Assembly: GCA_019235415.1 (NCBI GenBank)
Contig: JAFAKN010000184.1
Span: 1 to 64,000, forward strand
DNA from: Alphaproteobacteria bacterium
GTDB taxonomy: Bacteria; Pseudomonadota; Alphaproteobacteria; Reyranellales; Reyranellaceae
Length of the DNA stretch: 64,000 nt
Reading direction: 5' to 3'
The position numbers were made by a program, and so were the translations under genes. Below are positions 24,016 through 43,800 of the stretch, in pieces (within the stretch, counting starts at the first letter, position 1; each line of letters begins with the position of its first letter). Under the pieces are notes generated by a model. That model saw nothing but the letters and a program-made list of their open reading frames with translations, was not told the DNA's origin and searched no databases.

Positions 24016-25629
24016 CTACAGTGGCGTCGGACGGGGCGAGCCGGGTTGATCTATGTCAGGACCTTTGCCGAGGAGCGTACGTTTGTCCTCGACCTCGCAC
24101 GCCCTGCTCGAAGCAACCGTCAGGTTGCGCAGGCGCTGCCAGATACCGGGAGTGAGCATTGCGGGAGTGCACCGCCAGCGCCAATTGCCCTCGGGCTCGC
24201 CCGGCCGGTTCATGCGGGCCTCGTCGCCGAGATTGAGCAGATCCTGCAACGGGGCGATTGCCAAGGCCGCGGAGGAGCACCACGCGGCTTCGATCAGGGC
24301 CGAGGCCGCGCCGGCGCAGGTCGTCGGCGGCCGCTGCAGCGACTTCCATACTTTCTCCCGTAGCCATTCCGGCAAGCTTTCGAACCAACCGCGGCTGGTC
24401 GAGTTGTCGTGGGTCCCGGTATAGACGACGGCATTGCGGCCATAGTTCGCGGGCAGATGCGGATTGTCGCTCGAGCCGTCGAAGGCGAATTGCAGGACCC
24501 GCATCCCGGGTAGCCCGAACCGGTCGCGCAGCGCCACGACATCCGGGGTGATCACGCCGAGATCCTCGGCCACGAACGGCAGTCTGCCGATCGCCGCTTG
24601 CGCGGCGGTGAAGAAGTCTGCGCCCGGTCCGGCTACCCAGCTGCCCGGTTGCGCCGTCGCCGATCCGGCAGGTACGTGCCAGCCCGCCGCGAAAGCGCGG
24701 AAGTGGTCGAGGCGGACCATGTCGAATTGCGCCAGCAGCGCCCGCAGCCGATCGATCCACCAGCGATAGCCGGTCCGCCGGAGCGCTTCCCAGTCATAAA
24801 CGGGATTGCCCCAGAGCTGCCCGGCGGCGCTGAAGTAATCGGGGGGCACGCCGGCGACGAACAGCGGCCGACGGCGCTCGTCCAGTCGAAACAGCTGCGG
24901 CTCGGCCCACACGTCGCTGGATTCGGATGAGACATAAAACGGGAGGTCGCCGAGCAAGTGCACGCCTTTGGCGTGGGCGTAGTCCTTCAAGCGTCCGATC
25001 TGGCGAAATGCCAGGAACTGCCCAAACCTGATCCGCTCGCACTGCGGCGCCAGTTGGCGGCGTGCCGCGTCCACGACGCCGCTGTCGCGGCGCACCAGCT
25101 CGCTTGGCCATTCGAGGTAGGAGCGCCCGCCGTACCTGGCCTTCAGCGCACAAAACAGCGCATAGTCGTCCAGCCAGTGGCACTGGTCGCAACAGAACGC
25201 CTCGAAGGCAGCCCGCAAGTCGACGCTTGCACGCGCCGCGAAACCGCGCCAGGCGTCGCTGACCAGCCGCCGCCTGAACGGAAGGACGGCAGCGTAATCG
25301 ACCGAGTCGGTGGCGAGAGCGGTCTCGTCGCAGTTGCCGGGCTGCAGCAGCCCATCCTCGATCAGGTCGTCCGGGCTGATCAGCAGTTCGTTGGCGGCGA
25401 ACGACGACGGCGAGCAGTAGGGAGAATCCCCGTCGCCGACCGGTCCGAGCGGCAGGATCTGCCACCAGGTCTGCCCGGCGGCCTGCAGCACGTCGATCCA
25501 CTGCCGCGCCGAGGGGCCGAAATCGCCTATGCTGCGATCGGACGGCAGCGAGGTGACGTGTGCCAGGATTCCGCTCGCACGAAAATCCGGCGGAAACGGC
25601 GGCCAGAGCGAAGCGTGCAAGGGGCTCAT
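24016..25629 (-). CDS. malQ: 4-alpha-glucanotransferase
   Basis: RASGILAHVTSLPSDRSIGDFGPSARQWIDVLQAAGQTWWQILPLGPVGDGDSPYCSPSSFAANELLIS; start at Met 25629. Confidence 0.93.
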   Translation of the reverse strand: MSPLHASLWPPFPPDFRASGILAHVTSLPSDRSIGDFGPSARQWIDVLQAAGQTWWQILPLGPVGDGDSPYCSPSSFAANELLISPDDLIEDGLLQPGNCDETALATDSVDYAAVLPFRRRLVSDAWRGFAARASVDLRAAFEAFCCDQCHWLDDYALFCALKARYGGRSYLEWPSELVRRDSGVVDAARRQLAPQCERIRFGQFLAFRQIGRLKDYAHAKGVHLLGDLPFYVSSESSDVWAEPQLFRLDERRRPLFVAGVPPDYFSAAGQLWGNPVYDWEALRRTGYRWWIDRLRALLAQFDMVRLDHFRAFAAGWHVPAGSATAQPGSWVAGPGADFFTAAQAAIGRLPFVAEDLGVITPDVVALRDRFGLPGMRVLQFAFDGSSDNPHLPANYGRNAVVYTGTHDNSTSRGWFESLPEWLREKVWKSLQRPPTTCAGAASALIEAAWCSSAALAIAPLQDLLNLGDEARMNRPGEPEGNWRWRCTPAMLTPGIWQRLRNLTVASSRACEVEDKRTLLGKGPDIDQPGSPRPTPL

Positions 25630-25642
25630 CTGCCGGCCCCTC

Positions 25643-28129
25643 TCATGGTATCGGACACGGTTTTGCGTTCCAGATCTCGTGGGCATATTGCGCGATCGTG
25701 TGATCGCTCGAAAATTTCCCGCTGGCAGCCACGTTCAGGATGGCTTTGCGCGCCCACGCGTCACCGTCGGCATACAAAGTGGTGAGCTTCCCGTCCGCCT
25801 CGAGATAGGACTTGAGGTCCGCCAGGTGCATGTAGTGATCGCCGTGCGCCAAGAGCGCGTCATGCAACGGCGCAAACACGCCCGACTCGCCGCAGCTGAA
25901 ATGGCCAGAGCGCAACAAATCCAATGCAGTGCGGGTTTCGGGCTCGTTGTCGTAATGCCACTGCGGATTGTACCAGCTGCGGCTGTTGGCCACCTCGGCC
26001 GCCGTCAAGCCGAACAGGAAGAGGTTCTCCTGGCCGGCTTCCTCCGCCATTTCGATGGTTGCGCCGTCGCGCGTGCCGAGCGTCAGCGCGCCGTTCATCA
26101 TGAACTTCATGTTGCTCGTGCCGCTCGCCTCGTAGCCCGCGGTGGAGATCTGGTTGGAAACGTCGGCAGCGGGAATCAACCGCTCGGCCAGCGAGACGCA
26201 ATAGTCGGGCAGGAAGACGACCTTGAGCCGTCCCTTCACGGCCGGATCGGCGTCGATCGTGGCGGCGAGATCGTTGATGAACTTGATGATTAACTTGGCG
26301 AGCCGATAGGCCGGCGCCGCCTTGCCGGCGAACAGGAACGTCCGCGGCGTCATCTCGAGGCTGGGATTCTGCCGCAGCCGATCGTACAGCACGATGATGC
26401 GCAAGGCGTTGAGCAGCTGGCGCTTGTATTCGTGGATGCGCTTGATCTGGCAGTCGAAGATGTCGGCCGGATCGACGATGTGTCCGGTCGCGGCACGCAG
26501 CCACTGCGCGAAGCGCCACTTGGCCTCGTGCATGGCCTTGCGGAATGAGTCGCGGAAGGGCTTGTCGTCAGCGAGCGGCGCCAGGGCCCGCAACGCTTCG
26601 AGATCGGTCACCCAGGCCTCGCCGATGGCCTCGGTGACGAGCCTGGCCAGCGCCGGGTTCGCCAGCAACAGCCAGCGGCGCGGCGTGACGCCGTTGGTCT
26701 TGTTGTTGAAACGCTCGGGAAACACGTCGGCGAGGTCCTTGACCGTCGTCGTGCGCAGCAGACCGCTGTGAATCGCTGCGACGCCGTTGGTGCTGTGCGA
26801 ACCGACGATCGCGAGGTTGGCCATGCGCACCTTGCGTTCGCTGCCTTCCTCGATGAGACTCACGCGTCTGACGCGTTCCTCGTCGCCGGGAAAGCGGCTG
26901 CGCACGGTGTCGAGAAACCGCCGGTTGATCTCGAAGACGATCTCCAGATGGCGCGGCAGCAGCAGCTCGAACCAGGCGAGTGGCCATTTCTCGAGCGCTT
27001 CGGGAAGCAGGGTGTGGTTGGTGTAGGCCAAGGCCCGCTGCGTGATGTCCCAGGCCTCCTCCCAGCCGAGATGCGCCTCGTCGAGCAGGATGCGCATCAG
27101 CTCCGGCACGGCCATGGTCGGATGGGTGTCGTTGAGCTGTATGGCGACCTTTCCGGGAAAGCTGCTCCAGTCGCGGTTTCCGCGCCGATAGCGCCGCACC
27201 AGATCGGCCAGCGAGCAGGCGGCGAGGAAATACTCCTGCACGAAGCGCAGCGCCTGCCCCATGCTGGTCGAATCGTCGGGATAGAGCACGCGGGTGAGCG
27301 ATTCTGCAGCCAAGGTACCGGACAGGGCACCGACGAAATCGCCGCTGCTGAATTGCGCGAAGTCGAAATAGTCCGGCGTGGCGGCCGCCCACAGGCGCAG
27401 GGTGTTGATCGTCTTGCCGGCGTACCCGACGATCGGCCGGTCGAACGGGATGCCGATCAGTGACGAGCGCCGGCCGGGAACCGGCTGCAGGCGGCCGTCC
27501 TGCAGCGCGAACGAGCAGTTGATCTGGACTTCCACCGCTTCGTCGGGCCGCGCGACCTCCCACGGGTCGGTTCGCCGCAGCCAGTTGTCCGGCTCCTCGT
27601 ACTGCCATCCGTCGCGAATCGACTGCCTGAAGATGCCGTACTCGTAACGCAGTCCGTAGCCCATGGCGGGCAGCTGCATGGTCGCCATGGAATCGAGGAA
27701 GCAGGCCGCCAGCCGGCCCAGTCCGCCATTGCCGAGGCCGGCATCGGGCTCCTGCTCGATCAGCCCGAGCCAGTCGATATCCTGGCGCGCGACGGCCTGC
27801 TTGACCACGGGATCGAGCAGAAGGTTGGTGACGTTGTTGGCGAGCGAGCGCCCAATGAGGAACTCCATCGACAGATAGTAGATGCGCTTCGAGTTCTGCC
27901 GATCGTACGTGCTTTCGGTCAGGATCCAGCGCTGGGACAGGACGTCCCGAACGGAACGGGCGGCCGCTTCGAAACCCTCGCGCGGGCCGGCGGCCGCCGG
28001 TGCAACGACGTTGTCGAACAAGAGGTGACGCTCGTACAGGGCGTCGGCGCTGCCCGTGAATCGGATCGGGCCACAACCGTACTGGGCAAGAAGCTTCGCG
28101 TCGGGCACAGGTGTCGTGGAATCGTTCAT
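25643..28129 (-). CDS. glgP: Glycogen/maltodextrin phosphorylase
   Basis: 828 aa; YYLSMEFLIGRSLANNVTNLL, NDTHPTMAVPELMRILLDE, PLP motif GYEASGTSNMKFMMNGALTLGTRDGATIEM. Confidence 0.95.
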   Translation of the reverse strand: MNDSTTPVPDAKLLAQYGCGPIRFTGSADALYERHLLFDNVVAPAAAGPREGFEAAARSVRDVLSQRWILTESTYDRQNSKRIYYLSMEFLIGRSLANNVTNLLLDPVVKQAVARQDIDWLGLIEQEPDAGLGNGGLGRLAACFLDSMATMQLPAMGYGLRYEYGIFRQSIRDGWQYEEPDNWLRRTDPWEVARPDEAVEVQINCSFALQDGRLQPVPGRRSSLIGIPFDRPIVGYAGKTINTLRLWAAATPDYFDFAQFSSGDFVGALSGTLAAESLTRVLYPDDSTSMGQALRFVQEYFLAACSLADLVRRYRRGNRDWSSFPGKVAIQLNDTHPTMAVPELMRILLDEAHLGWEEAWDITQRALAYTNHTLLPEALEKWPLAWFELLLPRHLEIVFEINRRFLDTVRSRFPGDEERVRRVSLIEEGSERKVRMANLAIVGSHSTNGVAAIHSGLLRTTTVKDLADVFPERFNNKTNGVTPRRWLLLANPALARLVTEAIGEAWVTDLEALRALAPLADDKPFRDSFRKAMHEAKWRFAQWLRAATGHIVDPADIFDCQIKRIHEYKRQLLNALRIIVLYDRLRQNPSLEMTPRTFLFAGKAAPAYRLAKLIIKFINDLAATIDADPAVKGRLKVVFLPDYCVSLAERLIPAADVSNQISTAGYEASGTSNMKFMMNGALTLGTRDGATIEMAEEAGQENLFLFGLTAAEVANSRSWYNPQWHYDNEPETRTALDLLRSGHFSCGESGVFAPLHDALLAHGDHYMHLADLKSYLEADGKLTTLYADGDAWARKAILNVAASGKFSSDHTIAQYAHEIWNAKPCPIP

Positions 28130-28749
28130 CGGCTTCGTCCTTGGCCATGGGGCGCGTCGGAGAGCGGGGCGTTCCAGGTTTTGACCGCGGGGATGTCGCC
28201 GTAGTGGCCGAGCACGCAGAAAGAGCCGGTATCGAGCAGGAAGTTCACTCCGGCGGCCGGGGGCAACCCTATCCAGCGCGCGACCAGGACGCGCAGCACG
28301 TGGCCGTGCGCAAACAGCGCTACATCGCCCCGGACGGCGCGTGCCCGGGAGATTATCCGGTCGACCCTGGCCCCGACTTGCGCCGGCGACTCGCCGCCAG
28401 GGCAGCCGTCGCGGAAGACGATCCAGCCGGGCGCCTTTTCACGGATTTGGGCCAGGGTGAGGCCCTCATATGCGCCATAGTTCCATTCGCCGAGGTCGCC
28501 GTCGACACGCGCTGTCGAAGCGAGCCCGGCCAGCGCACAGGTGTCGCGGGCACGTTGCATGGGGCTCACGAACACGGCGGCGAAGCTCTGCCCAGCCAAG
28601 ACGGCACGCAGCTTTGTCGCAAGGAGGCGGCCGTTCTCGGTCAGCGGGAGGTCGGTCGTCCCGGTGTGCTGGCCACTGAGGCTCCAGGCGGTCTCGCCAT
28701 GACGGATCGCGAATATCTGCACCGGGTTCGCCCCCACATCGATCGTCAC
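28126..28749 (-). CDS. Histidine phosphatase family (phosphoglycerate-mutase-like) protein
   Basis: IFAIRHGETAWSLSGQHTGTTDLPLTENGR; overlaps glgP start. Confidence 0.85.
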   Translation of the reverse strand: MTIDVGANPVQIFAIRHGETAWSLSGQHTGTTDLPLTENGRLLATKLRAVLAGQSFAAVFVSPMQRARDTCALAGLASTARVDGDLGEWNYGAYEGLTLAQIREKAPGWIVFRDGCPGGESPAQVGARVDRIISRARAVRGDVALFAHGHVLRVLVARWIGLPPAAGVNFLLDTGSFCVLGHYGDIPAVKTWNAPLSDAPHGQGRSR

Positions 28750-28804
28750 GCCGCAAATGCAGCCGGGTCAGGATCGGCGAGGCCGACGCTTCCGATGGCG
28801 TCGG

Positions 28805-31264
28805 TCATGACCCGGAAGCCCGGAACGGCCATTGCCAGTTGGTGATTTCCGGCGCGTCTATTCCGAACTCGTAGGCGTGATTCTGGCAGGCGATCTGCTG
28901 GTTGCGCAACGCCTCACGGGCCGCGGAGCCGGTGACGCTGAACCGGGGCATGCGGTCGATGGCATCGATGGCCAGGCTGAAGCGGTCGGCCTCGTTGCGA
29001 ATCGCCAGTTCCAACGGCGTGTTGATGTTGCCGTGCTCCTTGTAGCCGCGCACGTGGATGTGGTGCTGGCCGGGGCGCCGGTAGGTAAAACGGTGGATCA
29101 GCCATGGATAAGCGTGGAAGTTGAAGATCACCGGCTTGTCGCGAGTGAACAGCGCTTCGAATTCGCTGTCGGTCAGGCCGTGCGGATGCTCTGCACGGGG
29201 CACCAGCTTGAGCAGATCGACCACGTTGACGAAGCGGATCTTGACATCCGGCAGGTGTTGCCGAAGCAACGCAGTCGCAGCCAACGACTCCATCGTCGGG
29301 CAGTCTCCGCAGCTCGCCATCACGACATCGGGTTCAGCGCCCTGGTCGTTGCTGGCCCAGTCCCAGATGCCCGCCCCTTTTGTGCAGTGCTCGATCGCCG
29401 CCTCGATGCCGAGGTACTGCAGGTGCACCTGCTTGTCCGCGACGATGACGTTGATGTAGTTGGTGCTGCGCAGGCAATGATCGGCCACCGACAGCAGGCA
29501 GTTTGCGTCGGGCGGCAGGTAGATTCGCACGACATCCGGGCTCTTGTTCGCGACGACGTCGAGGAAGCCGGGGTCCTGGTGCGTGAACCCATTGTGGTCT
29601 TGGCGCCAGACCAGTGCGGTGATCAGGATGTTGAGCGACGATATGTCGGCGCGCCATGTCAGCTCTTCGCACTTCTCGAGCCACTTGGCATGCTGGTTGA
29701 ACATCGAGTCGATCACGTGGATGAACGGCTCGTAGCTGTTGATCAGGCCATGCCGACCGCTCAGGAGATAGCCTTCCAGCCAGCCTTCCACGGTGTGTTC
29801 GCTGAGCATTTCCATGACGCGACCGTTGTCGGACAGCTCGCCGCCGTCGGCATCCTCCGGGAACTTCGCTGCAAGCCACGCCTTTTTCGTGACTTCGTAG
29901 AGCGCCTGCAGCCGGTTGGACTGGGTTTCGTCGGGGCCGAACACGCGGAAGTTCTGCATGTTCGACCGCATGACTTCGCGGACGAATTCGCCCAGCGTCG
30001 GAACGTTGCCGGCAAGGCTGGCGCCAGGCTTCTCGACTTTGACCGCGCAATCACGGAAGTCCGGCATGCTCAGCGGCCGACGCAACAGACCGCCGTTTGC
30101 CACGGGGTTGGCGCTCATGCGCCGGGTGCCGGTGGGTGCCAGCGCCTTGAGCGCCGGAATGAGTCGGCCGGTCTCGTCGAACAACTCGTCGGGCTTGTAG
30201 CTGCGCATCCAGCTTTCCAGCAGCTGCAAATGGCCGGCATTGGTGGCGATGTCGGGAATGGGTACCTGGTGGGCCCGCCAGAAGCCCTCGAGATAGTGTC
30301 CGTCGACCGTCCGCGGCGAGGTCCAGCCTTTCGGGCTGCGCAGGATGATCATGGGCCAGCGTGGCCGGAAGGCGCGGCCAGTCCGCCGCGCTTCCTCCTG
30401 CTTGCTGCGTATCTCGAGCACGCAGTGCTCGAGGGTCGCCGCCATCGCCTGGTGCATGCTCGGCGGGTCGCTGCCCTCGACGAAGTAGGGCGTGTACCCG
30501 TATCCGATGAACAGGCCGCTGAGCTCCTCGTGGCTTATGCGCGCCAGGATCGTCGGATTGTTGATCTTGTAGCCGTTCAGGTGGAGGACCGGCAGCACGG
30601 CGCCGTCGGTGATCGGGTTGACGAACTTGTTGCTGTGCCAGCTGGTCGCCAGCGGCCCTGTCTCGGCCTCGCCGTCACCCACCATCACCAGGGTAATGAG
30701 GTCAGGATTGTCATAGACGGTGCCATAGGCGTGCGACAGGCTGTAGCCGAGTTCGCCGCCCTCGTGGATGCTGCCGGGCGTTTCCGGCGTGGCGTGGCTG
30801 CCGATGCCGCCCGGGAAGGAAAACTGCTTGAAAAAGCGCTGCATCCCTGCTGCGTCTTCGCTCTTGTCCGGGTAGATTTCCGAATATGTGCCTTCGAGAT
30901 AGGCCTGCGACAGCACCGCAGGCGCGCCGTGGCCCGGACCACTGACGAAGATGGCATTCAAGTCGTACTTCTTGATCAACCGGTTGAAATGGACGTAGGT
31001 GAAGCTCTGCCCGGCGTCCGAGCCCCAGTGACCGAGCAGCCTGGGCTTGGTGTGCTTGAGGCTCAACGGCTCTCGCAGCAGCGGGTTGGCCTGCAGGTAG
31101 AGCATCCCGACGCAGAGGTAGAGGCTCGCCCGCCAATAGGCGTCGATCTTTTGCAGCTCATCGTGGCCGAGAGGCTGGCCGGCGACCGTCGCGCGTGCAA
31201 TGCCATAGGCGGAAAGGGAAGCATCGCGGGGAGAGGCGTCGGGAGCACCAGTGGGCATGTTCAT
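28805..31264 (-). CDS. xfp: Phosphoketolase
   Basis: [61 protein letters not shown]; start at Met 31264. Confidence 0.95.
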
Positions 31265-31383
31265 GGTGTTGCTCCTTTTGTGGGTGGACTTGCGGGCGTC
31301 GGGCACCCCGTTCGCGGGTTGGCGGCAGCGGGTCGAGGTGGGCGCATTGTGCCTTGGGCAACCACGCCGGCCCTTGACGTGGA

Positions 31384-33576
31384 TCAGCCCGCGTTTCTCA
31401 CCGGAGCTGCCTCCGCGGTCATGGCGCGCTCAGCGCCGGTAGACCCAATGCGCAGGAAGAGCGCCACCGTCGAGCGCGGCGTGACGCGGTATCGGCTGCC
31501 GCCCACGAGAGGACCCGAATTGTAGTCGACGATGTCGTCGGGCGAGGGGAGCGCGGTGTCGATCCAGCGCTGCCAGCCTGGCTCGGTTGACGGTACCGGG
31601 GGCAGTTCGAACTCGAGAGACTCCCAGTAGGCATTGTACATCATGTGCAGCCAGAAGGGCGAATCGGGGAACGATGGCCGCACGGTGCAGGCGAGGCTGT
31701 GGGAATCGTCGGACCAGTCCGGGTGGCCAAGCCGCACGCCGTGCCAGTCGATCCGGGCCCTGCGCAGAAGCTCGTTGAGGGTCAATGCAAAAGAATCGTC
31801 CAACCTGGCGCGCACCCTCTCCAGACGATGGCCGATCAGCACTCGCACGAAGCGGTGCAGGTCTGGATTGCGGTCGACAAGCCGCCAGTCCAGCCAGCTG
31901 ACCTCGTTGTCCTGGCAATAGGCGTTGTTGTTGCCGAGCTGAGTGCGGCCGACTTCGTCGCCCATCAGCAGCATCGGGGTGCCGATCGAGGTCAGCATGG
32001 CGACGAGAAAGTTTTTCGTCTGGCGATCACGCAGCTGTTCGGTCGCGACGTCGTGGCTCGGGCCTTCTTGTCCGCAATTCCAGGAGAGGTTGTTGTCCAT
32101 GCCGTCGCGACCGGCTTCGCCGTTCGCCTCGTTGTGCTTGCGGTCGTACGAAACCAAGTCGCGCAACGTGAAGCCGTCGTGGCAGGTCACGAAATTGATG
32201 CTTTCCTCCGGCTCGCGCTCGCGATGCCCGAAGATGTCCGGACTGCCGAGCACGCGTTGCGCCAACATCGGCACGGTATGGCGGTCGCCTTTCATGAAGC
32301 GGCGGATATCGTCGCGGAAACGGCCGTTCCATTCCTTCCAGCTGTCGCCGATGAAGCTGCCGAGCTGGTAGAGGCCTGCCGCATCCCAGGCTTCGGCAAT
32401 CAGCTTGGTACCAGCCAGGACGGGATCGGTTTCGATGTCCCACAGCGCCGGCGGATTGTCGAGCGGGCGGCCGCTCTCGTCGCGAGCCAGGATCGACGCG
32501 AGGTCGAAGCGGAAGCCGTCGACGTGCATTTCAGCAACCCAGTAGCGCAAGCTGTCGACAATCATGCGGCGCACGATCGGATGGTTGGCGTTGAGCGTGT
32601 TGCCGGTGCCGCTGTAGTTGGCATATTGGGCGCGGTTCTGCCCGAGTATGTAGTATGCCTCGTTGGCGAGCCCGCGGAAGCAGAGGGTAGGTCCGGTTTC
32701 GTCGACTTCGGCGGTGTGATTGTAGACGACGTCCAGGATGACCTCGATGCCCGCACGGTGCAGTGCCTTGACGAGGTCGCGGAACTCGTCGACCGCGCCG
32801 AGGGCGTCCCTGCGCGAGCTGTAGCCGGCGTGCGGGGCAAAAAATGATACCGGCGAGTAGCCCCAGTAGTTCGCCAGGCCAGGCGGGCAGTCATGGCGGT
32901 CGAACTGGAAGACCGGCATCAGCTCGACAGCCGTGATCCCGAGCTCACGCAGGTAGGGAATCTTTTCGATGACGGCGGCATAGGTACCGCGCCGCTCTTC
33001 GGCTATCCCAGAGCTCGGATGGCGGGTGAAACCCGCGACGTGCATCTCGTAGATGACCGTCGAGGAAAAGCTGCGGCGGAGCGGCGCGTCGCCCTCCCAA
33101 TCGTAGGCCGTGAGGTCGATCACAACGTTCTTCATGGCGGCGGCCATGTTCTCGCCGGGCTCGCTGGCACGCCGCCGCGAATAGGCCTCGGGCACGACGA
33201 CCGCACGACCATAGGGATCGAGCAGGACCTTGCCCGGATCAAAACGCAGCCCGTGCCCGGGGTCGAACGGACCCGAGGCGCGATAGGCATAAGCCTGACC
33301 AGGGCCGATGCCGGGCACGAAAACGTGCCAGTAGTGGTAAGTGCGGTGCGTCCGCGGGTCGAGGTCAATCACGCGCGACGGCCGCGTCGCCGCCTCGCAA
33401 TCGAACAGCAGGAGTTCGATCCGGGTGGCGCTGCGCGAGAAGACGCTGAAGTTGACGCCGCCGGCATGGATCGTGGCGCCCAGTGGGAAGGTCCGGCCGG
33501 CTGAGGGGACCAAAGGGCCAAGAGCCTTCGCGCCGGGGTGCATCTCTTTCGGGGCGCTGTCGACAAGCTTCGCCAT
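31384..33576 (-). CDS. glgX: Glycogen debranching enzyme
   Basis: [65 protein letters not shown]. Confidence 0.93.
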
Positions 33577-39059: not shown

Positions 39060-39395
39060 CGACATTTCGGTCGACCTCGGCGCCATCCTGAGTATCGGGG
39101 CTCCTACCTGAGACCATCGCGCTGTTCGTCTATCGCATCGTGCGCGAGATCGGTTCGCTGACCGGGGCCTCGGCGGCCTGGACGGCATGGTTTTTACAGC
39201 CGGAATCGGCGAGCACGATGCCAAGACCCGCGCCGAAGTCGCAGCCGGCTGCCGCTGGCCTCGGCCTGGCGCTTGATGCCGGCCGCAGTGCCAAAAGGTA
39301 GGGCGTCATCAGCCGCGATGACGCCAAGGTCAAAGCACTGGTCGCCCCGACCGACGAGTGGAGCGCATGATTGCCCGATGCACCAGTGCGCTGCT
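39060..39395 (+). pseudogene. ackA: Acetate kinase 3' remnant
   Basis: Fragments across frames/stops: ETIALFVYRIVREIGSLTG / LGGLDGMVFTAGIGEHDAKTRAEVAAGC / GLALDAGRSAKR*GVISRDDAKVKALVAPTDEW / MIARCTSALLG. Confidence 0.8.
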
Positions 39396-39489
39396 GGGAT
39401 CGGCGACCGGCCTGCGCTTTAACAAGATTTTGGGCCAATTTCTGCCGATTTACTCGAATCCATGGCGGGAAAGCTCTACCTATTTGGCA

Positions 39490-39583
39490 CTCGCGACCCC
39501 CCTCCCTGCATCGCGAGGACCGGACCCGATATCACCCTCGAAGGTCCGCTGGCGGCCGGTTGGTTCCAACCGGCCGCCTTTTT
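39490..39583 (+). terminator. Strong Rho-independent terminator preceded by two small hairpins
   Basis: GGCGGCCGGTTGG-TT-CCAACCGGCCGCC (39551-39578) then TTTTT; upstream CTCGCGA/TCGCGAG (39490-39496/39511-39517) and GGACC/GGTCC (39522-39526/39543-39547). Confidence 0.75.
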
Positions 39584-39620
39584 ATGCGATTGGCAAGCGG
39601 CGGCGGCGCACAAAGCACTG

Positions 39621-39634
39621 TTGACGTGGATCAA
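39621..39634. promoter_or_regulatory. FNR/FixK-type box
   Basis: TTGACGTGGATCAA, 14-bp near-palindrome. Confidence 0.6.
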
Positions 39635-39750
39635 TCCGGATACATCGCTCCTGTGCAAGAGGTTCGCCGGAACACGAGGGAGTCTGCAGCATCCGATAAC
39701 GGAAGGGCTGCAGCGGGGACTATCTCCAGGTCTTCGAAGAGGACAATCTC

Positions 39751-39849
39751 ATGGAAGCCGAGTTGCTTGCTCTCGCTGTTGTTGTCTGCAGTGTCGCGGC
39801 GCTGGCCATCGGAGGCTGGATTGCCTTGAAGAGGATGTTGAGGTGGTAG
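39751..39849 (+). CDS. Putative 32-aa single-TM small membrane protein
   Basis: MEAELLALAVVVCSVAALAIGGWIALKRMLRW*, with SD-like GAGGA 8 nt before ATG; below the 60-aa cutoff of the ORF track. Confidence 0.5.
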   Translation: MEAELLALAVVVCSVAALAIGGWIALKRMLRW

Positions 39850-39978
39850 GACTTGGCCCGAGTTGTGGTCGACGCCTCCGGGACACGCACCGCGTGGGCA
39901 ATTGGTTGATATACCCATCGAACTAGCAACCGGCCGCGACGATCATTGCGGTCCTCGTCGAGAGAGACTGACGACCCG

Positions 39979-40530
39979 ATGAAGGTTCTGTTTGCGACAA
40001 GTGAATTTGCCGATTTCTCCAAGGTCGGAGGCCTCGGCGAAGTCTCGGCCTCGCTTCCCCGCGGCATGAGCACGCGCACGTCGACGCCTCGGCGCTTCAG
40101 TGCCCGGGCGGCGATCCCGGCCTCCCGCAGCGCCGAAGCGCGAACGTCGGACGGCTTGTTGCTTTATCTCGTGAGGAGAAGTCGCTGTACGAGCGCCGCG
40201 GATCGCCTTACTGCGACCAGCACGGCCGCGACTGGCCCGACACGGCGGATCGTGGCCGCGAGCGACTTCCTCCTGATGCCCTCGCGCTTCGCCGGTGGCA
40301 TGGGCGATCGGCAACGAGGCATAGCGCTGCGCCTGCATCTGCATGAGACCTGGCGGCAGGACCGGTTTCCTGTTCTCGGATTTCGCGCCTGAGGGATTGC
40401 ATCGTACTTGCCGGCGCGCCTTTGCCGCGTTTGCCGACAGGGCCCGGCTGGCAACCGTGCGCGGCAACGCGATGTCGCGCCGGTCCGGCTGGTCGCTCGC
40501 AGCTCGGCACTATGAAACGCTCTACCAACG
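39979..40530 (+). pseudogene. glgA: Glycogen synthase remnant with internal deletions and a 60-bp inversion
   Basis: MKVLFATSEFADFSKVGGLGEVSASLPRG / SARAAIPASRSAEARTSDGLLLYLV / EKSLYERRGSPYCDQHGRDWPDTADR / RIVAASDFLLMPSRF, then minus-strand GLMQMQAQRYASLPIAHATG, then plus-strand TGFLFSDFAPEGL...RHYETLYQRTL. Confidence 0.85.
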
Positions 40531-40897
40531 GACTCTCACGCTGCCGGCGTCTTTTCGTTCGCGGCCGTTGCCCGGACGCCTGGCGAGGCATGCGCAAGCT
40601 CGCGGTCCCGCGGTCAAGAAGGCGTCGGCGATGCCGATGCTCGCCGAAACGTGGGAAGTCGCCGAAGGTCGGCAACATATCTGGAAGCAGCGCAGGCATC
40701 TCGCCGCTCTGCCGATGGGGGGCGCGCGATAAGCCAGGCGGCGCACGTCCTGCAGACTCTGGAGAACGCGCAGATGAGTCTCGAGACGCGCCTGCGCCGA
40801 CTGCACGAGCATGGCGAGCACGCAAAGCTGGGCTGACAGCGTGCGTCGCTCGAGGTGAGGCCGAAACGTTCGCCGCTTCTGGACAGGATGGCCAGCA

Positions 40898-43800
40898 CTA
40901 CGTCGGATTGTCCGCCGGTCGCGCAGGCGGCATCAGCTTCTCTCCCGGTTTCTTCCCGGTGCGCTCGCGCAGCGTCTGGAAGACGACGTAAAGCATCGGG
41001 ATCACGAGGATACCGATGCTGCTGGCGGCCAGCATGCCGACGAAGACCGGCGTGCTAACGCTGCGCCGGGCGATTTCCGAAGCGCCCTGGGCCCAAACGA
41101 GCGGCGCCAGGCCGACGATGAACGCGATGGACGTCATCATCACGGCGCGAAAGCGCAACTTTGCGCCGAGCTCGGCCGCCTCCTTGATGCCCATCCCGGC
41201 CTGCCGCTTGTCCTTGGCGAACTCGACGATGAGGATGGCGTTCTTCGCCGCCATTGCAATCAACACGACGAGGCCGATCTGCGCGTAGAGATTGAGGCTG
41301 AGGTTGAACAGCAGCACGCCCGCGAAGGCGCCCAGCACCGCGGTGACCACCGACAGCACGACGGGGACGGGGATCATCCAGCTTTCGTAAAGGCCGACCA
41401 GGAACAGGAAGGCGAACAGCAGGGCCATTCCGAGGACGACCGCGGTCTGCCCGCCGGCCCGCTGCTCCTGGAAGGCCGTGCCGGTCCATTCGAATCCGAA
41501 GCCCGGCGGCAGCGTCTTCGCCGAGATGTCGGCCATGGCCGCAAGCGCCGTCCCCGAGGCGACGCCCGGCGCCGGAATGGCGTTGACCGTCACCGAGCGG
41601 TAATTGTTGTAGCGCGTGATCACCTGCGGGCCGGTGATGTCGCGCAGCGCGGCGATCGCCTGCAGCGGCACCATCTTGCCCTTGTTGTTGCGGATGTAGA
41701 TCTTCCACAGATCGGGAATGTCGCGCCGGTTGCCCGCCTCGCCCTCCACGTTGACCTGCCAGGTGCGGCCGAACAGGTTGAAATTGTTCACGTAGTAGCT
41801 GCCGAGCGTCGCCTGCAGGGTGGTGAAGACGTCGCTGATGGTCAGCCCCATCGATTCGGCCTTCGGCCGGTCGATGTCGAGATAGAGCGACGGGGCCTGG
41901 GCGCCGTAGGTCGTGAACACCAGCGCGAAATGCGGGTCCTGGTGCACCGAGTCGATTAACCCCGCCACGACGCTGGCCAGCGTCGGTGGGTCGGCTCCCT
42001 CGAAGCTCTCGAGCTGGTATTCGACGCCGCCGGTCGTTCCGAGTCCGATGACCGGCGGCAGGTTGAACGGCAGGACCGTCGCGGTGCGGATCTGCGTGCC
42101 GGCACCGAACGTCTTTATGATCAGCGCCTGGGCCGAATCGGCGGCTGCCTTGCGGTCCTCGAAAGGCTGCAGCACGGCCACCATGAACGCGGTGTTGCTG
42201 GACGAGAACGAGTCGAGGAACGAGTAGCCGATGATCGACACGGTGTCCTTGACCTGTGGCATCGAGCGCAGGATCGCTTCGACCTGCCCGACGGCCTCGC
42301 TGGTGCGCGCGACCGAGACGCCGTCCGGCAACTGGACCTGCACGAAGAACGCGCCCTGGTCCTCCTCGGGCAGGAAGCTCGTGGGTGTCATGCGGGCCAG
42401 GCCGCCGACGCCCAGCGCGAACACCGCGACGAGCCCGATTCCCAACACCGAGAAGCGCACCATCTTGCGCACGAGCAGGGCGTAGCCGTCGCGGACGCCG
42501 TCGATCGCCCGACTGACGTAGCCCATCACGCCCCGGCGGGGACCGGAATGGCGCAGGAACAAGGCGCAGAGCGCCGGCGACAAGGTCAGCGCGTTGAACG
42601 CCGAGATCAGCACCGTCGCGATGATCGTGACGGCGAACTGCCGGAACAGTACGCCGGAGATCCCCGCGACGAAGGCCACGGGAACGAACACCGACAGCAG
42701 CACCAGCGTGATGCCGATGATCGGCGCGGTGACTTGCGTCATGGCCTTCTTCGCGGCGTCGGCCGGCGACAGGTCGGGTTCCTCCTCCATGACGCGCTCG
42801 ACGTTCTCGACCACGACGATGGCGTCGTCGACCACGATGCCGATCGCGAGCACCATGGCGAGGAGCGACACGGTGTTGGCCGAATAGCCGCAGGCCACCA
42901 GCACCATGAAGCCGCCGATCAGGCTGACCGGGACCGCGATGACCGGAACGATGGTGGCGCGAAGCTGCCCGAGGAACAGGAACACGACGAAGGCGACGAG
43001 AACGAACGCCTCGAACAGCGTCTTCAGCACTTCGTGAATCGTGTCGTTGACGAAGACCGTCGTGTCGTAGGTCGCGCGCGCCTTCAGCCCCTCGGGAAAG
43101 CGCGGACGGACCTTGTCGAGGGTGGCGTTCACGGCCGCGGCGGTCGCGATGGCATTCGAGCCGGGCGACAGGAAGATGCCGATGGTCACCGCTGAGCGGC
43201 CGTTCAGGCGGCTGAAGTTGTCGTCGTTCATGGCGCCCAGCTCGACCCGGGCCACGTCCTTGATGCGCAACGTCGAGCCGTCCGGGTTGGCGCGCAGCAC
43301 GATGTTGCCGAACTGGTCGGGATCGATCAGCCGGCCCTGGGTCTGGACGTTCAGCTGGATCTGCTGATTTTCCGGAACCGGGCGGGCGCCGATGCGCCCG
43401 ATCGATGCCTGGACGTTCTGGCTCTGGATCGCCTTGATGATGTCGGACGCGGCCACGTTGAGGCTGGTCAGCCGGGCCGTGTCGAACCAAATCCGCATCG
43501 AGTAGTTGAGGCCGCCGAACAGCTTGGCCTCGCCGACACCGGGCGTGCGCGACAGCTCGTCGAGGACGTTGATGATGGCGAAGTTGGTGATGAACAGCGG
43601 GTCGTATTTGCCGCTTTCGTCGTACAGGTTGACGAATTGCAGGATCGAGGACGATTTCTTCTGGACCTTGATCCCCTGGAGTTGCACCTCCTGGGGCAGC
43701 TGCGACAGGACGGTCTGCACCCGGTTGTTGACGTTGACGGTGTCGATGTCGGGGTCGGTGCCGAGCTCGAAGCTCACGGTGAGAGTGTACGAGCCGTCGT

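Follow-up and report, generated by a model that had tools for sequence, protein, structure and literature searches.

Two in-place micro-inversions in a broken glycogen synthase gene of a Reyranella genome, probably left by replication template switching

Short-range template switch mutations with the switch-point order 1-3-2-4 have been described in great apes, where the ancestors are known (Walker et al. 2021, PMC7954356). In this class a single inverted fragment stands in place of a longer ancestral stretch, and the same holds for the two blocks reported here from a remnant of the glycogen synthase gene glgA. They differ from the ape examples in that the host is a bacterium, that they measure 42 and 60 bp, and that the ancestor is deduced from orthologues. 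Most of the micro-inversions that distinguish human and chimpanzee are pure, measure less than 33 bp and lie between inverted repeats (Potapova et al. 2022, PMC8755829). Like the glgA blocks they are short and in place, covering tens of bases, but the glgA blocks have lost flanking bases and have no clear flanking repeats. In Escherichia coli, quasipalindrome template-switch mutations act at imperfect inverted repeats (PMC7202029, PMC6357072). The process proposed below is likewise template switching in bacterial replication, but the glgA blocks are not bounded by such a repeat. Finally, in E. coli under starvation, repeated template switching produces bursts of structural change that include inversions (Lin et al. 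2011, PMC3161906). There, as in glgA, one episode may account for a number of inversions and copy changes; however, the E. coli case is large-scale amplification in the laboratory while the changes in glgA range from 42 to 768 bp within one gene. A full-text search of the open-licence literature returned almost no reports of micro-inversions in bacterial genomes. Short inversions are hard to spot, since aligners take them for sequence that is divergent or deleted. The glgA case adds a further instance to a mutation class already known, in an unusual host and at an unusual density.

The window (the whole stretch of DNA that was analysed, 64,000 nucleotides) is part of a 73-kb contig; the draft assembly that it comes from totals 7.6 Mb in 768 contigs and is rated 97% complete. 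The pieces of glgA are collected in Table 1, with residues numbered as in GlgA from Reyranella soli (NBRC 108950). A deletion of about 768 bp has removed residues 109-364 upstream of the piece at 40246-40290. The fragments form a monotonic series (1-28 forward, 42-29 reverse, 63-108 forward, 365-379 forward, 402-383 reverse, 411-471 forward), and according to both the HMM map and the fragment map every surviving piece has kept its ancestral order. Almost every base of 39979-40537 could be assigned, and thus the pieces are not a selection of the best-preserved ones. Pfam searches with the remaining ORFs of 39358-40990 gave no match. Downstream of the remnant, PDAWRGMRKLAV at 40569-40607 resembles GlgA residues 438-450. 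It is located 3′ of the copy of these residues already contained in 40355-40537 and is either a chance similarity or a duplicated scrap.

Table 1. Pieces of the glgA remnant and of the adjoining ackA remnant, in order of position.
Feature	Position	Strand	Sequence	Evidence and remarks
glgA residues 1-28	39979..40062	+	MKVLFATSEFADFSKVGGLGEVSASLPR, ending SLPR	86% aa identity to R. soli GlgA; Pfam Glyco_transf_5 1.4e-07
second micro-inversion, GlgA residues 29-42	40063..40104	-	ALKRRGVDVRVLMP	PSSM scan, HMM and fragment maps
glgA residues 63-85	40105..40173	+	...AEARTSDGLLLYLV	73-85 at 77% aa identity; 63-72 placed by frame alone
glgA residues 89-108	40182..40241	+	SLYERRGSPYCDQHGRDWPD	after -1 frame change (8 nt replacing 9)
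glgA residues 365-379	40246..40290	+	RIVAASDFLLMPSRF	HMM map, PSSM scan
first micro-inversion, GlgA residues 383-402	40291..40350	-	GLMQMQAQRYASLPIAHATG	translation, blastn, HMM, PSSM, fragment map, whole-genome search
glgA residues 411-471	40355..40537	+	GRTGFLFSDFAPEGL...YETLYQRTL	HMM map, iE 3e-14
ackA (acetate kinase) remnant, C-terminal ~100 residues	39098..39405	+		several 1-2 base frame changes, one stop

With its collinear fragments, broken frame and missing core, the locus is a pseudogene of the GlgA family (TIGR02095). A search with this family found no intact glgA in the source assembly; that one has been overlooked in a draft of 97% completeness is possible but unlikely. Among 65 Reyranella genomes, the source genome included, 10 have a strong match to GlgA, and 9 of these exceed the family cut-off. 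The nearest intact orthologue shows 65% amino acid identity over the remnant pieces, and R. soli shows 61-80% nucleotide identity per piece. The remnant itself occurs in the source genome and in no other of the 65, and inheritance from an ancestor common to other Reyranella was rejected on this basis. The question, raised in the earlier note, whether relatives share the inversion and its breakpoints is thereby answered in the negative for the genomes compared. A search of a plasmid collection gave no match.

The 60-bp block, when translated from the minus strand, aligns with its GlgA segment exactly between the plus-strand neighbours. In intact GlgA the order is PSRF-EPC-GLxQMxAQRYGxLPIxxxTG-GLADTxED-xxTGFLF, and there the piece ending at 40290, the block and the piece starting at 40355 correspond to consecutive stretches. 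Its orientation is also evident at the DNA level. In blastn comparisons with intact glgA genes, 40290-40350 aligns with the gene of genome G064 in the orientation opposite to that of its flanks (61 bp, 78.7% identity), and the same is true of 40290-40341 in genomes G077 and G016 (76.9% each) and of 40304-40343 in R. soli (85%). A PSSM for residues 383-402 was run against 584 kb of the same genome (1,162,706 six-frame positions) and scored 44.6 bits at this block, the runner-up reaching 9.6. Searching the whole genome with GlgA of R. soli likewise brought up the minus-strand piece (40159-40359, E 1e-4). At the edges of the block, EPC (9 bp) is missing on one side and GLADTxED, residues 403-410 (24 bp), on the other, and the ancestral 93 bp have become 60 inverted bp plus 4. 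These additional bases are TGGC at 40351-40354, which stand without explanation between the block and the resumed glgA frame.

An in-place inversion of precisely these 60 bp, within a glgA decayed by internal deletions and frame changes, had been proposed in the earlier note. The coordinates proved to be exact, the reverse complement aligns to GlgA at the expected place, the decay is seen in the HMM and fragment maps, and orientation and position are borne out by blastn, the maps and the PSSM. The losses at both edges show, however, that this was not a clean swap. Of the motifs given as flanks, that ending at 40290 is correctly placed while TGFLF begins at 40361 instead of 40358, the resumed frame starting at 40355. 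The note also counted only one inversion in the gene and overlooked the block at about 40063-40104.

This second block of about 42 bp encodes GlgA residues 29-42 on the minus strand and sits between residues 28 and 63. The corresponding PSSM scored 36.1 bits here, compared to 22.6 for the next of 1.16 million six-frame positions, and the block is also present in the independent HMM map and fragment map. It was not picked up by blastn against intact Reyranella glgA, and its identity rests on protein-level evidence and on its collinear position. The edges are uncertain by 1-2 bases, the last codon reaching 40062. At the right edge residues 43-62 (about 60 bp) are missing, and the ancestral 102 bp have been reduced to about 42 inverted bp. 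The plus-strand frame is open across the block. An imperfect 19-nt inverted repeat (79%; 40078-40096 and 40129-40147) connects the block with the sequence after it and would be a direct repeat in the ancestral orientation.

Both blocks match their orthologues as reverse complements between forward flanks, and neither is a pure inversion. In each, a shorter inverted copy has taken the place of 31-34 codons at the expense of flanking bases, and for this reason a template switch of the 1-3-2-4 type fits better than a clean inversion. We read the locus as a recently killed glgA in which two segments were replaced by their own reverse-complement copies via replication template switching, and we assign this reading a probability of about 0.62. 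The growing strand would have detached from its template just past an intact codon (residue 28 and residue 379, respectively), annealed to the opposite strand some tens of bases further on, copied it in reverse (from 42 down to 29 and from 402 down to 383) and rejoined its template further downstream (at residue 63 and at residue 411). A single event per block would thus yield one inverted fragment with an adjacent loss. The order that is found, 28 / 42-29 / 63 and 379 / 402-383 / 411, corresponds to this switch order. Orientation, order, coordinates and flanking losses of the blocks can be read directly from the DNA; that a polymerase produced them, and in how many events, is what we infer. 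Some points weigh against template switching. The ancestral sequence had to be deduced from orthologues, of which the nearest is 65% identical at the amino acid level; Ku is encoded four times, so that end joining with trimming is possible; and the TGGC after the 60-bp block is not accounted for. The inversions are clearly a mutational scar and not a functional element.

The four copies of Ku bring us to a different origin, in which double-strand breaks flanked each block and end joining restored it in inverted orientation with trimmed ends. The bases missing beside each block would fit such trimming. However, two close breaks and the recapture of a 42- or 60-bp fragment would have been needed twice within one gene, and the fully preserved order of the fragments speaks against random re-ligation. 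We therefore consider end joining the less likely, though still a serious, alternative.

It is still less probable that amplification or assembly created the inversions artificially, for instance as chimeras formed in whole-genome amplification. Most chimeras of this kind are inversions accompanied by an intervening deletion (PMC1855051), the source genome is a draft of many contigs, and there is no point decay by which the events could be dated. But an artefact would have to comprise two flips and two returns, each within about 60 bases and fixed in the consensus. Moreover, it would have struck a gene that is also broken by the 768-bp deletion and a frame change and that adjoins another broken gene; a scan of 584 kb from this genome turned up no other case.

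Short inversions within genes are known from bacteria, and a recombinase might flip the blocks to and fro as in an inverton. In the present-day sequence, from which the ancestral flanks may differ, no inverted repeats of at least 7 bp are found at the ends of either block, which speaks against site-specific inversion. In addition, flipping back could not repair the gene since flanking codons are gone, and most of glgA is deleted; we give this explanation hardly any credence. The same applies to chance similarity: antisense frames of GC-rich genes can look like proteins, but each block scores well above every other six-frame position and lies where collinearity places it, and for the 60-bp block, which has an opposite-strand DNA match while the 42-bp block has protein-level evidence only, chance is refuted by the genome-wide PSSM scan and blastn.

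Returning to template switching, the state of the coding sequence bears on the timing. Over 171 aligned residues the terminal branch of the remnant is 0.215, compared to 0.369 for the functional GlgA of R. soli, and its dN to outgroups does not exceed that of R. soli. None of the glgA fragments contains a stop codon. Departures from near-consensus residues number 7 in the remnant and 3-11 in functional genes, and the inverted pieces are as intact as the forward ones, with no excess of amino acid changes. Since neither such an excess nor stop codons are seen, the damage was recent or came in a burst. Judged from these comparisons, the structural damage would have been early and fast, the lack of stops by itself being compatible with a modest neutral period. 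We tentatively suggest, while regarding it as rather doubtful, that the two inversions, the 768-bp deletion and the frame change all stem from one replication accident in which the polymerase hopped serially between strands along glgA. This would be a gene-scale version of chromoanasynthesis, with the gene broken before point mutations accumulated.

When both strands of 584 kb from this genome were scanned for collinear fragments, the two glgA inversions were the only ones recovered. The scan sees only genes for which a homologue is available and its sensitivity is low; at this sensitivity, a genome-wide habit of micro-inversion was rejected. The additional matches were weak and fell on ORFs of low complexity in the wrong frame or on a short repeat. 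The latter, a false positive at L129:7259-7312 with the peptide CHPERSEGS, is probably a dispersed palindromic repeat.

Template switching may be one of the routes by which bacteria lose genes, as suggested by a dead gene that was flipped in two places and has not decayed by point mutation; searches for pseudogenes that read a single strand would then undercount such inversions. Searching both strands for collinear fragments is a simple test that can be applied to all bacterial pseudogenes.

All pieces of the adjoining ackA remnant are on the plus strand; the fragment map found no inverted piece in it, and an inversion in this gene was therefore rejected. A second ackA match is found elsewhere in the genome (contig C319, 16395-16660). 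On contigs C644 (L150 and L152) and C127 (L149) the genome also encodes a GlgE-type domain, together with a branching enzyme that is divided between two contig ends; this suggests that glycogen is made by the GlgE route. This route would relax selection on glgA and could explain why its loss was tolerated. Near the dead glgA and ackA, a glycogen/phosphoketolase cluster (malQ, glgP, phosphoketolase and glgX by ORF inspection) is intact at 24016-33576.
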